Position numbers and translations under genes: made by a program
Source: Acidobacterium sp.
GTDB lineage: Bacteria > Acidobacteriota > Vicinamibacteria > Vicinamibacterales > UBA2999
Assembly (NCBI GenBank): GCA_002737365.1
Contig: NSIL01000010.1
Span: 38,835 to 102,834, forward strand
DNA length: 64,000 nt
Reading direction: 5' to 3'
The notes under the pieces: model-generated
Told to the model about the DNA's origin: nothing
The model's input: the letters and a program-made list of their open reading frames with translations, nothing else
Databases searched by the model: none
Shown: one piece after another, positions 6,304-61,301 of the stretch
Layout of the letters: the number at the start of each line of letters is the position of its first letter
How positions within the stretch are numbered: the first letter of the stretch is position 1

Positions 6304-9300
6304 ATGACAGACTTCGTCCACCTTCACCTGCACACCGAGTTCTCGCTACTCGACGGCGCCTGCCGCATCGACGAGTTGCTGGACGAAGCCGCACGACTGA
6401 AGATGCCGGCGCTGGCCGTGACCGAACACGGCAACATGTTTTCGTCGGTGATGTTCCACGATGCCGCGCGCAAGCGTGGCATCAACCCCATTCTCGGCTG
6501 CGAGGTCTACGTCGCGCCGGGCGATCGCCGCGATAAGAGCGGCACGCCCGGCGAGACCGCCAACCACCTGGTGTTGCTGGCCGAAAACGAGCAGGGGTTC
6601 AAGAACTTGATCAAGCTGGTCTCTTCTGGCTACACCGAGGGCTTCTACTACAAACCGCGCATCGACAAGCAACTCCTCGCGCGGCACGCCGAAGGACTGA
6701 TTGGCCTGAGCAGTTGCCTCAAGGGTGAAGTGGCGTGCGGGATTCGCGCCGAGCAGATGCCCAAGGCCCTCGCCGCTGCCGCGCAGTATCGCGACATTCT
6801 GGGTAAGGGCAACTTTTTCCTCGAAATGCAGTTCCAGGGCATTGAGGAGCAGCGCATCGTCAACAACGGCTTACTCCCGATCGCGCGCGACTTGGAGATG
6901 CCGCTGGTCGTCACCAACGACGTGCACTACCTGCGGCACGGCGACCACAAGCCGCACGACATCCTGCTGTGCATTGGCACCGGCAAGTCGGTCAACGACG
7001 AGAATCGCCTGAAGTATCACGGCGACCAGTTCTTCCTGAAGACCGCTGCGCAGATGGCCGAGGTGTTCGGGGACTATCCCGAGGCGATGAAGAACACGCT
7101 GTTGATCGCCGAGCGCTGCGACGTGACCATTCCGTCGGGCCAGAACCACCTGCCGAAGTTCGCTGTCCCCGAGGGCTACACGCTCGACGAGTACTTCGAG
7201 CACGTCACCCGCGAAGGCTTTAAGCTGCGGCTGGAGCGCCTGCGCCAGGTCGACGACAAGGGCGAGCTTCGCCACACCCTGGCGGAGTACGACGAACGTC
7301 TCGCCTACGAAATCGCCATGATCAAGAAGATGGAATACCCCGGGTACTTCATGATCGTGTGGGATTTCATCCGCTATGCGCGCGAGCACGGCATCCCGGT
7401 CGGACCCGGCCGCGGGTCGGCCGCCGGCAGCCTGGTGGCCTGGGCCCTGCGCATTACCGACGTCGATCCGCTGCACTACGACCTGATTTTCGAGCGCTTC
7501 CTGAATCCCGAGCGCGTGTCGCTGCCTGATATCGACGTCGACTTCTGCGAGCGGCGGCGTGGGGAAGTGATCGCCTACGTGACCGAGAAGTACGGTCGCG
7601 AGAACGTCTCGCAGATCATCACCTTCGGCACGATGAAGGCCAAGGCGGTCATTCGCGATGTCGGCCGCGTCATGGACATGCCGTACGCGGACGTCGACAA
7701 GATCGCCAAGCAGATTCCGCCGGCGCTCGACATGACCCTCGAGAAGGCGCTGGCCGAGAATCCCATCCTGCGCGATATGGCCCGCGCTGACAGCCGCGTC
7801 AACGACGTGCTGGAAATGGGCAAGCGGCTCGAGGGGGTGTCGAGAAACGCCGGCGTCCACGCGGCCGGCGTCGTGATCGCGCCAGGACCGATCACCGACT
7901 ACGCCCCGCTCTACAAGAGCAACCGCGACGAAATCACGACCCAGTGGGCCATGAAAGAGGTCGAGCGCGTCGGCCTGCTGAAGATGGACTTTCTCGGCCT
8001 GAGCACGCTCACGCTGATCAACGACGCGCTCGCTGAGATCAAGCGCACCGAGAATATCGTCCTCGACATTGACAACGTGCCGCTCGATGATGCGAAGACG
8101 TATCAGTTGTTTATCGAGGGCCAGACCTACGGAATTTTCCAGTTTGAGAGCTCGGGCATGCGCGAGATTCTGCGACGCGCCAAGCCGCAACGGCTCGAAG
8201 ACCTGATCGCCATGAACGCCCTGTATCGTCCCGGTCCGCTCAAGGGCGGCATGGTCGACGATTACATCAACCGCAAGGCGGGACGCAGCGTGGTGAAATA
8301 CGACCTGCCGATCCTGGAGCCGGTGCTGGCCGACACCTACGGCGTCATTGCCTACCAGGAACAGGTCATGCGCATGGCGTCGGTGGTGGCCGGCTTCACC
8401 ATGGGCCAGTCCGACGTACTCCGCAAGGCCATGGGTAAAAAAGATCCCAAGGTCATGGCGACGCAGCGCGAAGCTTTTATGAAGGGCGCGCTGGAGAAGC
8501 AGGTCAACGAAAAGAAGGCCAGCAAGATTTTCGAGTTGATGGAGTACTTCGCCGGCTATGGCTTCAACAAGTCGCACTCCACGGCCTACGCGTTCCTGGC
8601 CTACCAGACGGCATATCTCAAGGCGAATTTCCCCAGGCATTTTGCCGCCGCACTGTTGACCATCGAAGCCGCCAACACCGAGAAGTTGGCGGTCTACATC
8701 GGCGAATCGCGCGAGCGCGGCATCGCGGTACTGCCGCCCGACATCAACGTCAGCCAGTTGCACTTCACGGTGGTCCCGGAAGGGGTGCGGTTCGGGCTCA
8801 CCGCCATCAAGGGTCTGGGCGAAGGCGCCATCCGCAGCCTGATCGAGGTGCGCGAGCGGGCGGGGCGGATCACCTCCGTTCATCAGCTCTGCGAAGAACT
8901 AGACCTGCGGCTGGTGAACAAGAAGGTGCTCGAAGCACTGGTGCGCTCAGGCGCGTGTGACAGCCTGGTGCCCAAGGACATCCCGCTGACGGCCGGTCGC
9001 GCCAAGTTGTTTGGCGCCGTCGACAGCGCCATTGAACACGGCAACCGCACGCAGCGCGATCGCGATCAAGGTCAGGCCGACTTGTTTGGCGGCGGGGAAG
9101 AGGGCGGACTCTCGATCATCCGTCTTCCCGATGCTCCGCCCTGGACCGAGATGGAGTTGCTGTCGCACGAGAAGGAGGCGCTCGGTCTCTATCTCAGTGG
9201 CCACCCGATCAATCGCCACGCGGAGAGCCTGCGCGCGTTCGGCGCGAAGACCGTGGGCGACCTGACGCTCAGCGAAATCCCGGAGGGTGTCGACGGCGCC

Positions 9301-9825
9301 ACAGGCCGGTTGGTCCTGGACGATGTCTATGTCGGCGGTATTGTCGGCGGCATTCGCAGCCTGAAGACCAAGAAGGGCGATCCGATGTGCGTGTTCACGC
9401 TCGAGGATCACCAGAGCTCGGTCGAAGTGGTAGTGTTCCCGGAAATGTACGGCAAGCACCGGACGGTGATCGAGAATGGTGCGCTGCTGCTGGTTCGCGG
9501 CAAGTTCGAGCGCGATGAAGAGAATTCGCGGTTCCAGTGCACCGACATGATGCCGCTGGCGCTGCTCAAGGAGCGGCTGTCGCGCGGGGTCAGGATCCGG
9601 TTGAAGGCGACCTGCCCGCGTGAGACGATTGAGGCGCTATGGGAGCTGCTGCCCAAGCACCGTGGCGACCGGCCGGTGGCTCTCGAGGTCGAGTTGAACG
9701 GCGGCGCTCACCACGTCATCGTTCGCGCCGACGTCACCGCCTCGATCCGCGTCCGGACATCGGAACAGTTTGTGGCCGATGTGGAGCGCATTTGCGGCCC
9801 GGGCTCCGTGACCGTACATTCCTGA
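6304..9825 (+). CDS. dnaE: DNA polymerase III alpha subunit
   Basis: PHP 'VHLHLHTEFSLLDG', 'GPGRGSAAGSLVAW', 'PDIDVDFCERRR', OB-fold C-terminus. Confidence 0.98.
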   Translation: MTDFVHLHLHTEFSLLDGACRIDELLDEAARLKMPALAVTEHGNMFSSVMFHDAARKRGINPILGCEVYVAPGDRRDKSGTPGETANHLVLLAENEQGFKNLIKLVSSGYTEGFYYKPRIDKQLLARHAEGLIGLSSCLKGEVACGIRAEQMPKALAAAAQYRDILGKGNFFLEMQFQGIEEQRIVNNGLLPIARDLEMPLVVTNDVHYLRHGDHKPHDILLCIGTGKSVNDENRLKYHGDQFFLKTAAQMAEVFGDYPEAMKNTLLIAERCDVTIPSGQNHLPKFAVPEGYTLDEYFEHVTREGFKLRLERLRQVDDKGELRHTLAEYDERLAYEIAMIKKMEYPGYFMIVWDFIRYAREHGIPVGPGRGSAAGSLVAWALRITDVDPLHYDLIFERFLNPERVSLPDIDVDFCERRRGEVIAYVTEKYGRENVSQIITFGTMKAKAVIRDVGRVMDMPYADVDKIAKQIPPALDMTLEKALAENPILRDMARADSRVNDVLEMGKRLEGVSRNAGVHAAGVVIAPGPITDYAPLYKSNRDEITTQWAMKEVERVGLLKMDFLGLSTLTLINDALAEIKRTENIVLDIDNVPLDDAKTYQLFIEGQTYGIFQFESSGMREILRRAKPQRLEDLIAMNALYRPGPLKGGMVDDYINRKAGRSVVKYDLPILEPVLADTYGVIAYQEQVMRMASVVAGFTMGQSDVLRKAMGKKDPKVMATQREAFMKGALEKQVNEKKASKIFELMEYFAGYGFNKSHSTAYAFLAYQTAYLKANFPRHFAAALLTIEAANTEKLAVYIGESRERGIAVLPPDINVSQLHFTVVPEGVRFGLTAIKGLGEGAIRSLIEVRERAGRITSVHQLCEELDLRLVNKKVLEALVRSGACDSLVPKDIPLTAGRAKLFGAVDSAIEHGNRTQRDRDQGQADLFGGGEEGGLSIIRLPDAPPWTEMELLSHEKEALGLYLSGHPINRHAESLRAFGAKTVGDLTLSEIPEGVDGATGRLVLDDVYVGGIVGGIRSLKTKKGDPMCVFTLEDHQSSVEVVVFPEMYGKHRTVIENGALLLVRGKFERDEENSRFQCTDMMPLALLKERLSRGVRIRLKATCPRETIEALWELLPKHRGDRPVALEVELNGGAHHVIVRADVTASIRVRTSEQFVADVERICGPGSVTVHS

Positions 9826-9854
9826 TGCCCAAGCCTCAAGGCCCAAGCCCCGTT

Positions 9855-17986: not shown

Positions 17987-18882
17987 ACAAAGCGCGCACC
18001 ACGCCCATGACCTGGGCTCGTTTCATCGTCTTGACCGGGCTGTCTGGTTCGGGGAAATCGCAGGCCATCCGGGCGCTCGAAGACCTCGGCTACTACTGCG
18101 TCGACAACCTGCCGGTGTCGCTGCTGCCGGTACTGGCGGAGCTCAGCGAGCGCCAGACCGAACACCACCGTGTCGCCGTGGTGATGGATGTCCGCGAGTC
18201 ACGATTCGTCAGCGACTTCCCGCGCGTGTATCGCCAACTGAAGACCAACAAGCACCTGCGGACCAAGCTGATCTTCCTGGAGGCCGGTCACGCCGAGCTG
18301 GTGCGCCGCTTCAGCGAGACCCGCCGGCCACATCCGCTGGCGCCCGACCGGCCCATCACCGAGGGGCTCTCGGAAGAGCGCGCGTCACTGCGTATTATTC
18401 GGACCATGGCCGACAAGGTCGTCGACACCTCGAAGCTGAACGTTCACGAACTGCGACAGCAGTTGCGCGAACTGGTGTCGGGGCAGAAGCAGGCTTCGCA
18501 GCTGGTGCTGACCGTTCTCAGCTTTGGGTTCCAGAACGGACCCCCGGCGGAGGCGGACGTGATGTTCGACGTGCGCTTCCTCAAGAACCCGCACTGGGTG
18601 CCGGCGCTGCGGCCGCAGTCCGGTCGCGATCCGGCGGTCGCGGCCTACATTCGGCGGCAGCCGACCGCGCGCGCGCTGATCAAGCGGCTCAACTCGCTGC
18701 TGCGCTGGATGGTGCCGTTCTACGTGCAGGAAGGCAAGTCGTACCTGACGGTGGCGATCGGCTGCACCGGCGGGCGTCACCGCTCGGTCTACGTGGCCGA
18801 GGCGCTAAAGCGTGAACTGTCGGATCTTAAGGGCGTCTCAGCGCGTGTGGCGCACCGCGACCTGGCGAAAGGGACCCGATGA
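17983..18882 (+). CDS. rapZ: RNase adapter protein RapZ
   Basis: 'FIVLTGLSGSGKSQAIRALEDLGYYCVDNLP', 'GCTGGRHRSVYVAE'. Confidence 0.96.
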   Translation: MNKARTTPMTWARFIVLTGLSGSGKSQAIRALEDLGYYCVDNLPVSLLPVLAELSERQTEHHRVAVVMDVRESRFVSDFPRVYRQLKTNKHLRTKLIFLEAGHAELVRRFSETRRPHPLAPDRPITEGLSEERASLRIIRTMADKVVDTSKLNVHELRQQLRELVSGQKQASQLVLTVLSFGFQNGPPAEADVMFDVRFLKNPHWVPALRPQSGRDPAVAAYIRRQPTARALIKRLNSLLRWMVPFYVQEGKSYLTVAIGCTGGRHRSVYVAEALKRELSDLKGVSARVAHRDLAKGTR

Positions 18883-19328
18883 TTGCAGTAGTCGTAATTA
18901 CGCACGGGCAGTTGGCGACCGAACTGGTCAACGCCGCCGAGACGATCGTTGGCGATCTCCCGCACTTCGCGGCGGTCTCCATCGGCTGGCACGAAGACGT
19001 GCAGGATGCCCGCGACGCGATCGCTGCGGCGATTGAACGGGTCCAACAGCCCGGCGGGGTGCTTTTGGCCACCGACATGTTCGGCGGTACGCCGTCGAAC
19101 CTCGGCCTGACGTTTCTCAAGGAAGACGCCGTCGAGATCGTCACCGGCGTGAACCTGCCGATGTTGATCAAGGCCGCCAACCTGCCCGATGGTCCGCGCC
19201 TGACCGACGTCGCGCGAATGCTGCGCGAGCACGGGCGCAACGCCATCTGGGTAGCGTCTGACTTGCTGACTGGTGCCTCGGGTGCATCAGGTGCCGAGGC
19301 GACCAGTGACCGCGGTGCCACTGAATGA
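18879..19328 (+). CDS. PTS EIIA component, mannose family
   Basis: 'VVVITHGQLATELVNAAETIVG', 'LLATDMFGGTPSNLGL'. Confidence 0.9.
   Translation: MIAVVVITHGQLATELVNAAETIVGDLPHFAAVSIGWHEDVQDARDAIAAAIERVQQPGGVLLATDMFGGTPSNLGLTFLKEDAVEIVTGVNLPMLIKAANLPDGPRLTDVARMLREHGRNAIWVASDLLTGASGASGAEATSDRGATE
19273..19299 (+). repeat. GTGCCNNGG nonamer tandem repeat, 3 units, in the EIIA C-terminal tail
   Basis: gtgcctcgg|gtgcatcag|gtgccgagg, period 9. Confidence 0.65.
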
Positions 19329-23680: not shown

Positions 23681-23722
23681 ATCTGACCTCAACTCAATCC
23701 CTGTCGCACTTGTGCGGGTCGT

Positions 23723-23739
23723 GGCACCGTAGGCACCCT
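23723..23739 (-). repeat. Two-unit relic of the GTGCCNNGG-type repeat in the pal-tolB spacer
   Basis: minus strand: (a)gggtgcctacggtgcc; GTGCC spaced 9 bp. Confidence 0.3.
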
Positions 23740-23746
23740 AATCTTT

Positions 23747-25141
23747 CTACTGTGACCAATTCGGCGTCGTGTTGTTGCCATCCTTGGTGAGCTGTCGCAA
23801 GTTACGGCCGTCTCGGTCGACGGTGAAGATCTGGCTGCGGCCGGCGCGCGTCGACATGAAGGCCAGGTGGCGACCGTTGGGCGCCCACGCCGGGCTCTCG
23901 TTGCTGCCTTCGCCAAACGTGATCTGCCGGGTCTCGCCAGAGGCAATCCCCAGGATCTTGATGTCGAATCCGGGGCCCGTGCGCGCGGTGAAGGCGATTT
24001 CGTTGTACGGCGCCGGCGACCAGGTGGCGCGATCGGCATACGACTCGAACGAAATCTGCCGCAGACCGGTGCCATCGACATTGATCACGAAAATCTGCGG
24101 CTGGCCGCGCCGTTCCGACGTGAACGCGATCTGCGTGCCGGTCGGCGACCAGGTCGGCGTCGAATCGATCGCCGGGCTGTTGGTGAGCCGGACCAGGTTC
24201 GAGCCGTCGCGATTAATCACATAAATCTCAGAGTTGCCATCCCGGCTCGAGGTGAAGGCGAGCCGCGAGCCGTCAGGCGAGAACGCCGGCAGCCAGTTCT
24301 GGCCCACGCCCCTGGTCGGCGACTCCATCGTCCCGGCGAAGATGTTCGAGATTAGCAGGTCGGGCGCACCCGATCGGTACGACGTGTAGGCGATCGACCG
24401 GCCATCGGGTGACCAACTGGGCGTCAGGTTCATGGTGCGGTTGATCGTGATCCGGCGCGGATTGGCGCCGTCATAGTCGGCGATGAACACTTCCTTGACG
24501 TCGCGCTTCTCAACCGTCGCCAGCACCGCTTCGCGATTGCGGTCGGAAATAAACGTCAGCTTGGTCTTGGCAACGCCGCGCAGCTGCCGCTGCGAGTCGT
24601 GCAGTTCGTCGGACATGGTGTGCGCGTAGACGCGGGGATTGGCGCCCGAGCCCGTGTACTCGCGGCCGTACGCCGACTGCCGCGCGCGGACGTTATACAG
24701 GCGCATCTCGACCCGCACACCAGTCGGCGTCTTTTGCACCGTGCCAATCAGCACCCCGTCGGCGCCCAGTTCGCGCCAGCGATCGAACGGTACGGCATCG
24801 ATCGAGCCGGCCACTGGAATCGACTTGTAGGTGTCCCGCGGGATCAATGCGAACTCCCGCTCGAAGTCGAGGTCGGCATAGAGCACCTCGCTGATGACGC
24901 GGGCCGCGTCCTGCGTTTCGCGATCGGGCGACAGCGCCAACAAATCGGGAACCGCCAGGCGCGGCGGCGAGCCGGGTTCGCCAGTCAGGCGCAGTTCAAC
25001 GCTGGTCGGCTGCGATGGCGTTGCGGCTTGCTGCTTGCCCGCCGTAGCCGTTGCGGAGGTGGGCTGGGCCGTCAGCACCGCGGAGGCTGCCAGCACCGCC
25101 ACACCCAGGAGCTTTGTCGCAATGGATTTCGTCATACTCAC
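23747..25141 (-). CDS. tolB: TolB beta-propeller protein
   Basis: Repeated 'PAFSPDGSRLAFTSSRDGNSEIYVINRDGSN' blades. Confidence 0.96.
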   Translation of the reverse strand: MSMTKSIATKLLGVAVLAASAVLTAQPTSATATAGKQQAATPSQPTSVELRLTGEPGSPPRLAVPDLLALSPDRETQDAARVISEVLYADLDFEREFALIPRDTYKSIPVAGSIDAVPFDRWRELGADGVLIGTVQKTPTGVRVEMRLYNVRARQSAYGREYTGSGANPRVYAHTMSDELHDSQRQLRGVAKTKLTFISDRNREAVLATVEKRDVKEVFIADYDGANPRRITINRTMNLTPSWSPDGRSIAYTSYRSGAPDLLISNIFAGTMESPTRGVGQNWLPAFSPDGSRLAFTSSRDGNSEIYVINRDGSNLVRLTNSPAIDSTPTWSPTGTQIAFTSERRGQPQIFVINVDGTGLRQISFESYADRATWSPAPYNEIAFTARTGPGFDIKILGIASGETRQITFGEGSNESPAWAPNGRHLAFMSTRAGRSQIFTVDRDGRNLRQLTKDGNNTTPNWSQ

Positions 25142-55691: not shown

Positions 55692-57470
55692 TTGTCGGAC
55701 CAGGACCTCGCGTCGATCGCCGAGGCCCGGGCGCTCGCGCGCCGGGCGAAGCTGGCACAGGCCACGCTCGCCGAATTTTCCCAGGACCAGATCGACCGCA
55801 TTGTCGAGGCGATGGCGATGGCGGTCGTGCCGCATGCCGAGGCGCTCGCGCGCCTGGCCGTGGAAGAGACCACCTTCGGCGTCGTCAGCGACAAAATCCA
55901 GAAGAACCTGTTTGCCTCGCAACGGGTGTTCGAGTTCATCAAGCCCATGAAGACCGTCGGCGTGATCAACCGGATCGACGATCGCAAGATCATCGAGATC
56001 GCCGAACCGTTTGGTGTGGTGGCGGCCATTATTCCATCCACCAACCCGACCTCGACGGCGATCTACAAGATCCTGATTGCGATCAAGGCGCGCTGCGCGG
56101 TCGTGATGACGCCGCATCCGTCGGCCGCCCGCTGCATCACCCAGACGGCCGATCTCATGAACGAGGCCGGTCGCCGCGCCGGGCTGCCCGACGGCGCGAT
56201 TGGCTGGATGACGACCGTCACGCTCGAAGGCACGCAGGCACTGATGAAGGCGCGCGAGGTCGCGGTGATTCTCGCGACCGGCGGCATGGGCCTGGTGCGC
56301 GCGGCCTACAGCGCCGGCAAGCCCGCCTACGGTGTCGGCCCGGGCAACGCGCCGTGCTACATCGAGTCGAGCGCCGACGTGCGCAAGGCCGCCAACGACA
56401 TCCTGACTGGCAAGGCATTCGACCACGGCGTGCTGTGCTCATCGCCCAACTCGGTGGTGGTGGATCAAGCCGTCGAGGCGGAAGCGCGGCGTCAGTTCAA
56501 GGATCAGGGTGGCTACTTCCTGTCGTCGGCGGAAGCGGAAACGCTGGCGAGGCAGTTGGTGACACCGCAGCGATTGCCCAACCCCGCGTTTGTCGGCAAG
56601 TCGGCCGTCTACATCGCCGAGCAGTGCGGCATCGCCGTGCCGGCGGGCACGCGCGCGCTGATTGCGGAACTGACGGGCGTCGGCCGAGACTTTCCCCTGT
56701 CGATCGAAAAGCTGTGCCCGGTCCTGTCGTACTACGTCGTAGAGGATTGGCGCGACGCCTGCGAGCGCTGCAAGCAGATCCTGAAGTACGGCGGCATGGG
56801 TCACACCATGTCGATTCACTCGCAGAACGACGCGGTCATTCTCGCATTTGGACTGCACAAGCCGGCCTACCGCATTTGCGTGAACACGCCGACCACCCAT
56901 GGCTCAATCGGCCTGACCACCGGTCTGGACCCGGCGATGACGCTTGGCTGCGGCGGGTTCGGCGGCAACATCACGTCGGACAACATTTCACCGAAGCATC
57001 TCCTCAATATCAAACGGGTCGCTTACGAATTGCGGCCGGCCATGGCTTCGCCGCAGGTGCCAAGGGTGCCTAACGTGCCTGAGGTGCTTGGGGTGCTCAC
57101 ATCTGGTGCTCCTGCGCTTCCCAAAGCGCCCGCGAGACCGCAACCAGATGCAATTTCGGCGGACGCACTGACCAGCCGGATCGACCAGTTCCTGGCGACC
57201 CGGGGCTTGGCACCGGCATCCGCCGCCACTCGCCCGGAAGCAGGCGAGCTGCGGCGAGACCTCGCCGAAGCGGCCTCCAGCCGCGAAGGCAGGCTCCAGG
57301 CACCTGCTGTCGCCGAGAAGTTCGTTTGCGAGGATGACGTCCGACTAGCCATTAAACAGGGTCGAACGCTCCTGATCGGCGAGCGAACCATCGTCACTCC
57401 GGCTGCCCGGGATGCAGGTGAGGCGGCGAAGGTGTTCGTGCAGGTCGGCTGGCCTTCCGTAAACAGCTGA
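55692..57470 (+). CDS. Acylating aldehyde dehydrogenase (AdhE-N/EutE-like), BMC-associated; TTG start; ~115-aa C-terminal extension
   Basis: '[34 protein letters not shown]', '[16 protein letters not shown]', catalytic Cys '[17 protein letters not shown]'; 3 bp after the BMC stop. Confidence 0.92.
57057..57101 (+). repeat. GTGCCNNGG nonamer tandem repeat, 5 units, in the aldehyde dehydrogenase linker
   Basis: gtgccaagg|gtgcctaac|gtgcctgag|gtgcttggg|gtgctcaca, encodes [15 protein letters not shown]. Confidence 0.8.
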
Positions 57471-59277: not shown

Positions 59278-59722
59278 GAGTTCAAGAGATCAGGACTTCC
59301 TTCGAGCGCCGTCGCCTTCTGCGAGACGTGTTCGGCCAGGGCAGTGAGCGAGGTAAGCCGCTGTTTGGTGTTCTTGCTCAGTTCCTGCAGTTGCGCGAGC
59401 GGACCACGTCGACCGATCGCGCCACCTCGGCGGTCGAGACCTTCAGTTGCCCGCGCAGTTCCTCGAACCAGGCGCACTCCGTGCGGAGGGTTTCGATCGT
59501 GGCCTGGTTCTCGAGCGCCTGCGATGCCAGTTGGTTGACCGCCAGGCGATGTGTCTGCAGCTCGCCGTCCGGCGCGGTGATCTTCTCGGACACGCTCGAG
59601 GGTATCTCGCGCCGGAGGGTCGGGAGGACAGGCCGGTAGCCGCAGAAATTGCGGCATCCCTGGCCCGTCCGGGTGGCTGTTCCTGCAATATCCCGGAGAC
59701 GGGAACTACGCCCTCGGAACAA
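59278..59722 (-). pseudogene. Frameshifted remnant of coiled-coil protein gene
   Basis: 'LQTHRLAVNQLASQALENQATIETLRTECAWFEELRGQLKVSTAEVARSVDVVR' (one frame) continues as 'GPLAQLQELSKNTKQRLTSLTALAEHVSQKATALE' (other frame) near 59395. Confidence 0.55.
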
Positions 59723-59777
59723 TTGCGCCCGAATTCGTCACACCACCGGCGGCAGTCCGCTTGCACCTGGAGGGCGC

Positions 59778-61301
59778 ATGTTGGCCACCGTCGAAAGCGC
59801 GACCGTCATTGGCATCGACGCCTGCCGTGTGCACGTCGAGGTTGACGTCAGCTTCGGCCTGCCCCACTTTCAGCTGGTCGGGTTGCCAGACGCGAGCGTC
59901 CGCGAAAGCCGCGACCGCGTTCGCGCCGCGATTCGAAACTCGGGTTACGAGTTTCCCGCGCATCGAATCACCATCAACCTGGCGCCGGGGGACGTGCGCA
60001 AGGCGGGGCCGGCATTCGACCTCCCCATCGCCCTCGGGATGCTGGCCGCGACCGGCAAAGTACAACCGTCCAGCCTGGCGGGCATCCTGCACGTCGGCGA
60101 GCTGTCGCTCGACGGCGCCATCCAGCCGGCCCGTGGCGTGCTGGCCATTGCCGCCGAAGCCAGGCGCCACGGCGCGCGAGCCTTACTGCTGCCCTACGAC
60201 AACCTCGCCGAAGCCGCGGTCGTCTCGGGCCTCACGCTGCTGCCGGTCCGCACGCTCGTCGAGGCGGTGACGCGCCTGAACCAATCGCCAGCCGACTGGC
60301 CAATACCGGCACCGAGCACCCTTGGCACCCCTGGCACTCTTGGCACCCTCGACCTTGACCTGTCCGACCTTCACGGCCAGGCCTTCGCCCGACGCGCGCT
60401 GGAGGTGGCGGCGGCGGGCGGCCATAACCTCTTGATGGTTGGTCCACCAGGCGCGGGCAAAACCATGCTGGCGCGACGGCTGCCCGGTATTCTGCCGCCG
60501 CTGTCATTCGATGAAGCGATTGAGGCCACCACCATTCACTCGGTGGCTGGGCAACTGCGATCCGGCGTCGGCCTGCTGAGTGAACGGCCGTTTCGCGCGC
60601 CGCATCACACCATCTCCGACGTCGCGTTGGTCGGCGGCGGGTCCACGCCACGGCCTGGCGAAGTGAGCTTGGCGCATCACGGCGTGTTGTTCCTCGACGA
60701 GATGCCGGAGTTCGATCGTCGCGTGCTCGAGGCACTTCGACAGCCGATTGAGGAAGGCCGCATCACGGTGTCACGCGCCCTGCGATCGGTGGTGTTCCCG
60801 GCGCGCTTTGTGCTCGTGGCCGCGATGAACCCCTGCCCGTGTGGATACCTGGGCGATCCGAAACGCGTGTGCCGCTGCACGCCGCCACAGATCGCGCGTT
60901 ACCGCGGCCGGCTGTCCGGGCCGCTGCGCGATCGCCTGGATCTGATTGTGGAAGTCGAGGCGGTCCCGATCACCGCTTTGACTGAAGGCCCCGCCGGGGA
61001 ATCGTCGGCGGCGGTTCGCGAACGCGTGCTGGCGGCCAGGGCACGTCAACTCGCCCGTTGCGCCCGCGCGCGGGTGAACGCGCAGCTCAGCGGGACGGAG
61101 CTGAAGAAACACGCGCCACTGAACCTCGCCGGCCGGCGCCTGCTGGAGCGCTCGGCCGATAAGCTCCACCTGTCGGCCCGTGGCTTCCACCGCATCATCC
61201 GCGTCGCGCGGACGATTGCCGACCTGGCGGGCGCCGAGGCCATTGCCACCGAGCACCTGATGGAAGCACTGCAGTACCGGTTCGTTGAATCAACCTCGTA
61301 A
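59778..61301 (+). CDS. comM: YifB/ComM family Mg-chelatase-like AAA ATPase
   Basis: 'GIDACRVHVEVDVSFGLPHFQLVGLPDASVRESRDRVRAAI', 'LMVGPPGAGKTMLARRLPGILPPL', 'AAMNPCPCGYLGD'. Confidence 0.96.
   Translation: MLATVESATVIGIDACRVHVEVDVSFGLPHFQLVGLPDASVRESRDRVRAAIRNSGYEFPAHRITINLAPGDVRKAGPAFDLPIALGMLAATGKVQPSSLAGILHVGELSLDGAIQPARGVLAIAAEARRHGARALLLPYDNLAEAAVVSGLTLLPVRTLVEAVTRLNQSPADWPIPAPSTLGTPGTLGTLDLDLSDLHGQAFARRALEVAAAGGHNLLMVGPPGAGKTMLARRLPGILPPLSFDEAIEATTIHSVAGQLRSGVGLLSERPFRAPHHTISDVALVGGGSTPRPGEVSLAHHGVLFLDEMPEFDRRVLEALRQPIEEGRITVSRALRSVVFPARFVLVAAMNPCPCGYLGDPKRVCRCTPPQIARYRGRLSGPLRDRLDLIVEVEAVPITALTEGPAGESSAAVRERVLAARARQLARCARARVNAQLSGTELKKHAPLNLAGRRLLERSADKLHLSARGFHRIIRVARTIADLAGAEAIATEHLMEALQYRFVESTS
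60315..60350 (-). repeat. GTGCCNNGG nonamer tandem repeat, about 4 units, in the comM linker
   Basis: + strand agcacccttggcacccctggcactcttggcaccctc; GGCAC spaced exactly 9 bp; encodes STLGTPGTLGTL. Confidence 0.8.

Follow-up and report, generated by a model that had tools for sequence, protein, structure and literature searches.

Filamentous cyanobacteria carry STRR heptamers, which are dispersed, lineage-specific short tandem repeats; the repeats considered here resemble them by description, with a unit of nine instead of seven nucleotides. Heptamers of the sequence GGGAATC, found in Xanthomonas and Nostoc, are arranged in tandem, scattered over the genome, mostly intergenic and associated with unrelated host genes (PMC4692102). 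On the coding strand they lie 0-50 bp from stop codons or overlap them, on the non-coding strand they lie upstream of genes, they are fewer between divergent genes, inverted pairs have been noted, and transcript starts and stops at the heptamers are more frequent in the quadruplex-forming set (PMC4692102). TAACTGA direct repeats, known from Beggiatoaceae, Cyanobacteria and Bacteroidetes, have a fixed unit and are mostly located just upstream of start codons (PMC4679880). REP/BIME palindromes, associated with a RAYT transposase, form extragenic hairpins for which roles in termination and mRNA stabilization have been proposed (PMC3733652). The arrival of dispersed short tandem repeats at previously unoccupied sites and their closeness to stop codons have been standing questions ever since such repeats were first reported from cyanobacteria, Xanthomonas and Beggiatoaceae.

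The arrays described here, built from the 9-bp unit GTGCC-N-R-R-R, are a counterpart of such dispersed long simple-sequence repeats (LSSR/STRR kind): the unit occurs head to tail at many unrelated loci above chance, varies in copy number by whole units and is restricted to one lineage. They are most like the GGGAATC heptamers, with which they share a location on the sense strand near or over stop codons (37:5, with stop codons in phase with the unit; see below). They differ from the heptamers in unit length (9 versus 7 bp) and sequence (GTGCCNRRR), in a unit that, judged by its sequence, would pair with itself rather than form quadruplexes, in their occupation of protein linkers in four reading frames, in genome-specific flavors of the unit and in their occurrence in Acidobacteriota. 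Unit-built convergent hairpins, four permitted linker frames and the use of the same sites by several repeat families are additions to what is known of the heptamers. With the TAACTGA repeats, the nonamers share the shortness of the unit, copy numbers from a few to tens, an occurrence at many loci and a patchy distribution (PMC4679880), but they lie past stop codons instead of upstream of start codons, and their unit varies between species. Like REP/BIME, they form hairpins outside genes; unlike REP/BIME, they have no fixed palindrome of 20-40 bp, their loops and the order of their arms vary by locus, and they show no linkage to RAYT.

Arrays in the window and enrichment against chance

The original prediction, made on a stretch of 64,000 nucleotides (the window), placed the repeat at four sites, all of which we found, in the claimed reading frames VPxVP, LGTxGT and GASGAS (Table 1). 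In the aldehyde dehydrogenase linker, units 4-5 have decayed from GTGCC to GTGCT. The "trace" that had been noted in the pal-tolB gap (pal and tolB being putative names taken over from the prediction) is genuine, as its orthologue in a congener, G004, is a three-unit array; it lies 10 bp past the stop codon of the gene at 23747-25141 and is sense to that gene. The real start of the comM-like gene is probably at about 59775. The window arrays are old, partly decayed members of the family, in a small host genome (G000) with few arrays.

Table 1. Nonamer arrays, their host genes and a heptamer-bearing gap in the window
Feature	Position	Strand	Units or domains	Frame or orientation
Aldehyde-dehydrogenase-family linker array	57057-57101	+	five units GTGCCAAGG GTGCCTAAC GTGCCTGAG GTGCTTGGG GTGCTCACA	VPxVP
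comM (Mg-chelatase-like AAA) linker array	60311-60346	-	four units GTGCCAAGA GTGCCAGGG GTGCCAAGG GTGCTCGGT	antisense to gene, xGT
EIIA-man-like protein C-terminal tail array	19273-19299	+	three units GTGCCTCGG GTGCATCAG GTGCCGAGG	GAx
Putative pal-tolB gap remnant	23719-23736	-	two units GTGCCTACG GTGCCACGA	
Host gene, aldehyde dehydrogenase family protein	55692-57470	+	Pfam Aldedh, PF00171	
Host gene, comM-like Mg-chelatase subunit ChlI family	59649-61301	+	PF13541, PF01078, PF13335	
Host gene, PTS EIIA-man family protein	18879-19328	+	PF03610	
28-bp gap with degenerate CCCAAGC heptamers	9826-9853	+		directly 3' of stop codon

Within the window alone, the arrays barely exceed chance. The two-unit pattern, with at most three mismatches, gave 25 matches against 21 expected, and low-scoring arrays were no commoner than control motifs. 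With a stricter score, the window had three coding arrays, whereas the codon-shuffled null that had been proposed with the prediction gave 1.2 on average and never more than two in 60 synonymous-codon shuffles. As this makes for a weak case, the case was made genome-wide. The genome-wide search, likewise part of the original proposal, returned 16 exact two-unit matches in the 3.05 Mb of G000 versus one for the reversed pattern. In a scan of all 5-mers at lags of 5 to 39 over sampled stretches of the genome, GTGCC was the strongest well-counted lag-9 repeat (24 observed versus 3.5 expected in 464 kb of G000), and in the corresponding scan of G004, lag-9 units of the GTGCC nonamer family led the entire list. 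Three-unit counts in relatives, allowing free four-base spacers and set against a reversed-pattern control, came to 318 versus 0 in G004, 601 versus 19 in G013, 71 versus 0 in G021 and 19 versus 1 in G020. The nonamer arrays are thus real and enriched.

Among 60 relatives, the two-unit pattern stood out in most members of the genus, in three further genomes of the family (G013, G021 and G020) and in G057, which belongs to another family of the same order; in the remainder, including G003 of the same genus, it was at background. When 396 genomes of the phylum were searched for three units, the genus and scattered single genomes came up. GTGCCYRRR in three copies was present in five of 395 phylum genomes, every one a known carrier, and its reversed control in one genome only, with two matches. 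Among the matches listed in a wider contig search, many came from Streptomyces and other high-GC bacteria, and Vicinamibacterales and Acidobacteria records were represented too. The nonamer family is restricted to one lineage, which, judging by record names and a table of kinship, would be the Vicinamibacterales of the Acidobacteriota.

Unit numbers at orthologous sites

The window is syntenic over long stretches with G004, G002 and G003 and over shorter ones with G005, G008 and G001. The comM linker holds three units in G005, four to five in G000, five to six in G006 and G008 and nine to ten in G004; G003 lacks a nonamer array there. A comparison of orthologues had been called for with the prediction that the repeat is self-expanding, and in comM it indeed revealed differences by whole 9-bp units, from three to about ten or none. 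Together with arrays of up to 33 units, the longest seen (in G013), this variation between species makes local growth by whole units well supported. In G001 and G002, the comM linker contains the palindrome GGCGGGTCT-NN-AGACCCGCC or its parts instead of the nonamer (L073 and L069). As a separate observation, this palindrome is itself dispersed, with 67, 48, 50 and 20 copies in G001, G002, G006 and G007, respectively, and none in controls.

In the aldehyde dehydrogenase linker, units 2-3 (GTGCCTAAC GTGCCTGAG) are common to G000 and G004 and in register, and the array therefore goes back to an ancestor of both. G002 possesses a version of its own, G005 and G001 have none, and G003 has a linker of sequence VPRVPERPNVP without exact units. 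The next linker of the protein bears an array of opposite orientation in G004 and G002. The EIIA tail array is absent from G002 and G003, and G004 has only a weak Gly/Ala-rich tail at this position. In the pal-tolB gap, two units in G000 correspond to three in G004 and to nothing in G003. At the orthologous position of G002 (L100), we noted a tandem repeat of about 13 bp, GGTTCCTCACGGA, in about six copies. Sites have thus been gained or lost between congeners. The gap at 9826-9853 displays the same site behavior with a different repeat family, its degenerate CCCAAGC heptamers in G000 being matched by five CCCTGAT heptamers in G004 (L097:211-250).

Placement relative to genes and reading frames

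Arrays were classified in samples of five genomes, with genes called by a simple codon-score script. In the array-rich relatives, 20/38, 10/14, 8/16 and 37/41 arrays were intergenic; an unbiased sample of G004 had 10 of 18 arrays in the 7.2% of DNA that is intergenic (p = 9e-8). In G000, intergenic enrichment was absent (1/8). Among arrays no more than 20 bp from a stop codon, 37 were sense and five antisense to the gene (p = 4e-7), and wherever two arrays formed an inverted pair no more than 300 bp apart (28 cases), they were convergent (p = 7e-9); the G057 loci had been chosen partly because pairs had already been seen there, which affects the pair counts but not the orientation. The stop codon lay in the phase of the unit, at its TRR position, in 14 of 39 cases versus 4.3 expected (p = 4e-5), so that the stop codon is often part of the array and provided by it. 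Gaps between divergent genes held three of 39 arrays (outside G057), compared with about 30% of gap length as gauged in G000/G004 (p = 8e-4).

Coding arrays occur on either strand. In G000, G004 and G021, they are read in the VPx, GAx, APx and xGT frames only, the few exceptions being in G013 and G057, and the Cys-Arg and Arg-His frames are almost unused. This confinement bears out the idea that the repeat settles at protein-tolerant sites. The linker niche that the original prediction assigned to it is occupied, yet it is an incomplete description, as intergenic arrays make up roughly half of the total or more in array-rich relatives, and tolerance of linkers is no explanation for the strand and stop-codon rules that these follow. 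The prediction caught a minor, decayed face of the nonamer family. Two long arrays near called gene starts in G013 (L380:3919-4125 and L381:1459-1620) would encode (GHP/GHL)n, in the His-rich frame avoided elsewhere; these gene starts are possibly wrong.

Predicted RNA folding

Convergent pairs are present in G057, G004, G021, G002 and G000. In G057 and G004, they take the form (GTGCCNRRR)n, a short loop and (YYYNGGCAC)n, folding into long hairpins whose loops are often closed by GTGCG/CGCAC. For 120 of 122 arrays, the predicted RNA was more stable in the sense than in the antisense orientation; a single array forms the better fold when read as GTGCC, an orientation that allows G-U pairs, than when read in antisense. 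Relative to other 3' regions, the 100 nucleotides past stop codons were predicted to be more stable with arrays in G057 (p = 2e-5) and G013 (p = 0.01). In G004, arrays brought no such gain in stability to these 100 nucleotides (p = 0.66), and an RNA role is therefore weak for single arrays. No Rfam match covered the arrays in five loci.

Unit flavor and candidate movers

The flavor of the unit differs between genomes (chi-square p = 7e-28). At position 6, the majority base is T in G021, nearly always T in G057 and mostly T in G004, whereas G013 invariably has C and G000 either A or T. Multi-unit strings common to loci of one genome did not exceed those in within-array shuffles, so that whole-array copying between loci is unsupported. 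Three G004 loci (comM, L356 and L357) have a similar order, TAAG then TACG. Copying from arm to arm in hairpins was likewise rejected, as the similarity between arms was no higher within a locus than between loci. With a flavor that is genome-wide, yet neither shared strings nor arm copies, expansion looks local, and the common spelling within a genome looks like the product of seeding from a common source or of selection by a common reader.

Several candidates for a mover were discarded. The presence of RAYT transposase genes does not track the arrays: G003 has five RAYT genes and no arrays, none was found in G057 (74% complete) despite its arrays, and none of 20 RAYT loci had an array nearby. 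Reverse transcriptases are absent from most array-rich genomes. As to phages, a four-unit pattern is matched by 20 IMG/VR contigs, yet their arrays all lie on the same strand and form no convergent pairs at distances of up to 300 bp. We found no mobilizing gene and no clean insertion scar; the gaps of congeners are too diverged for junctions to be read and for the target-site duplications and empty sites of a MITE to be recognized. The proposal that the repeat is mobile thus stays plausible with regard to site turnover and genome flavors, while the copied tract, scar or mobilizing gene that would attest to it did not turn up.

Origin and persistence of the arrays

Based on these results, we consider it reasonably probable that the nonamers are a lineage-restricted family that grows by slippage, is seeded at new sites and persists as selection dictates at gene ends and in linkers. 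Arrays would gain and lose entire units, probably through replication slippage aided by the near-palindromic unit, in which GGTGCC may pair with itself via two G-U pairs and CCTAGG via Watson-Crick pairs. Seeds would arise at new sites by some route, and selection would set what persists. Gene-adjacent arrays would be kept when they start at or just past a stop codon on the sense strand, where one array could pair with itself in the RNA or two convergent arrays could join in a long hairpin; such putative 3'-end stem-loops might serve in termination or in protection of the mRNA end. Intragenic arrays would be kept in disordered linkers when the frame encodes residues that are small and flexible.

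The convergent pairs in five genomes, patchy presence across families and turnover of sites among congeners would also be expected if such a pair were a small inverted-repeat element, non-autonomous and mobilized by a transposase, e.g. RAYT, and single arrays were its remains. With loop sequences that are different at every locus, many arrays that have no partner and RAYT genes untied to arrays, we regard this as unlikely. Slightly less likely still is that the arrays are binding sites for a sequence-specific RNA- or DNA-binding protein, their flavor reflecting each genome's version of this protein and their units being alike through selection instead of spread. A regulator has been proposed by MacGregor for the TAACTGA arrays (PMC4679880), and a genome-wide flavor without shared multi-unit tracts as well as the strand and stop-codon rule are consistent with one; arrays in coding linkers, on either strand and in four frames, would be needless for a regulator, the host genes are unrelated and no candidate protein emerged.

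Ordinary low complexity of proteins, with Pro/Ala/Gly-rich linkers of a GC-rich genome mimicking nonamer arrays by codon bias, would explain the near-chance counts in the window, the survival of some coding arrays in synonymous shuffling and the G003 aldehyde dehydrogenase linker, which lacks exact units. It is contradicted by the intergenic arrays, as the identical unit recurs in untranslated gaps, in several frames and on both strands; moreover, reversed-pattern controls are near zero and almost all of the other Acidobacteriota in the sample lack the unit, so that we hold this explanation to be highly improbable. Beyond slippage, seeding and selection acting on the nonamers, nonamers, CCCTGAT/CCCAAGC heptamers, the ~13-mers and small palindromes replace each other at orthologous sites. 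Conceivably, although we are doubtful, one process keeps supplying gene ends and disordered linkers, as permissive places used time and again, with the short tandem repeat that is active in the species concerned, via a dedicated seeding activity that writes the genome-specific flavor and always leaves paired arrays convergent; GGGAGTC heptamers might, just as tentatively, belong to these interchanging repeats.

A single bacterial order thus offers carriers and a non-carrier in one genus, alignable sites with zero to about ten units, species flavors and different repeat families at a given spot, and with such material seeding, expansion and selection become separable by comparison. The arrays also carry a warning, in that Pro/Ala/Gly-rich linkers in genomes of this kind can be DNA-driven and not protein-driven.

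G004 also contains heptamer arrays of the units GGGAGTC, GGGAACC and GGGATCA (L252:9615-9707, L355:9064-9139, L256:7237-7275 and 9294-9340, and L271:5183-5235), some of them as convergent inverted pairs; GGGAGTC is one base off the GGGAATC of Xanthomonas and Nostoc.
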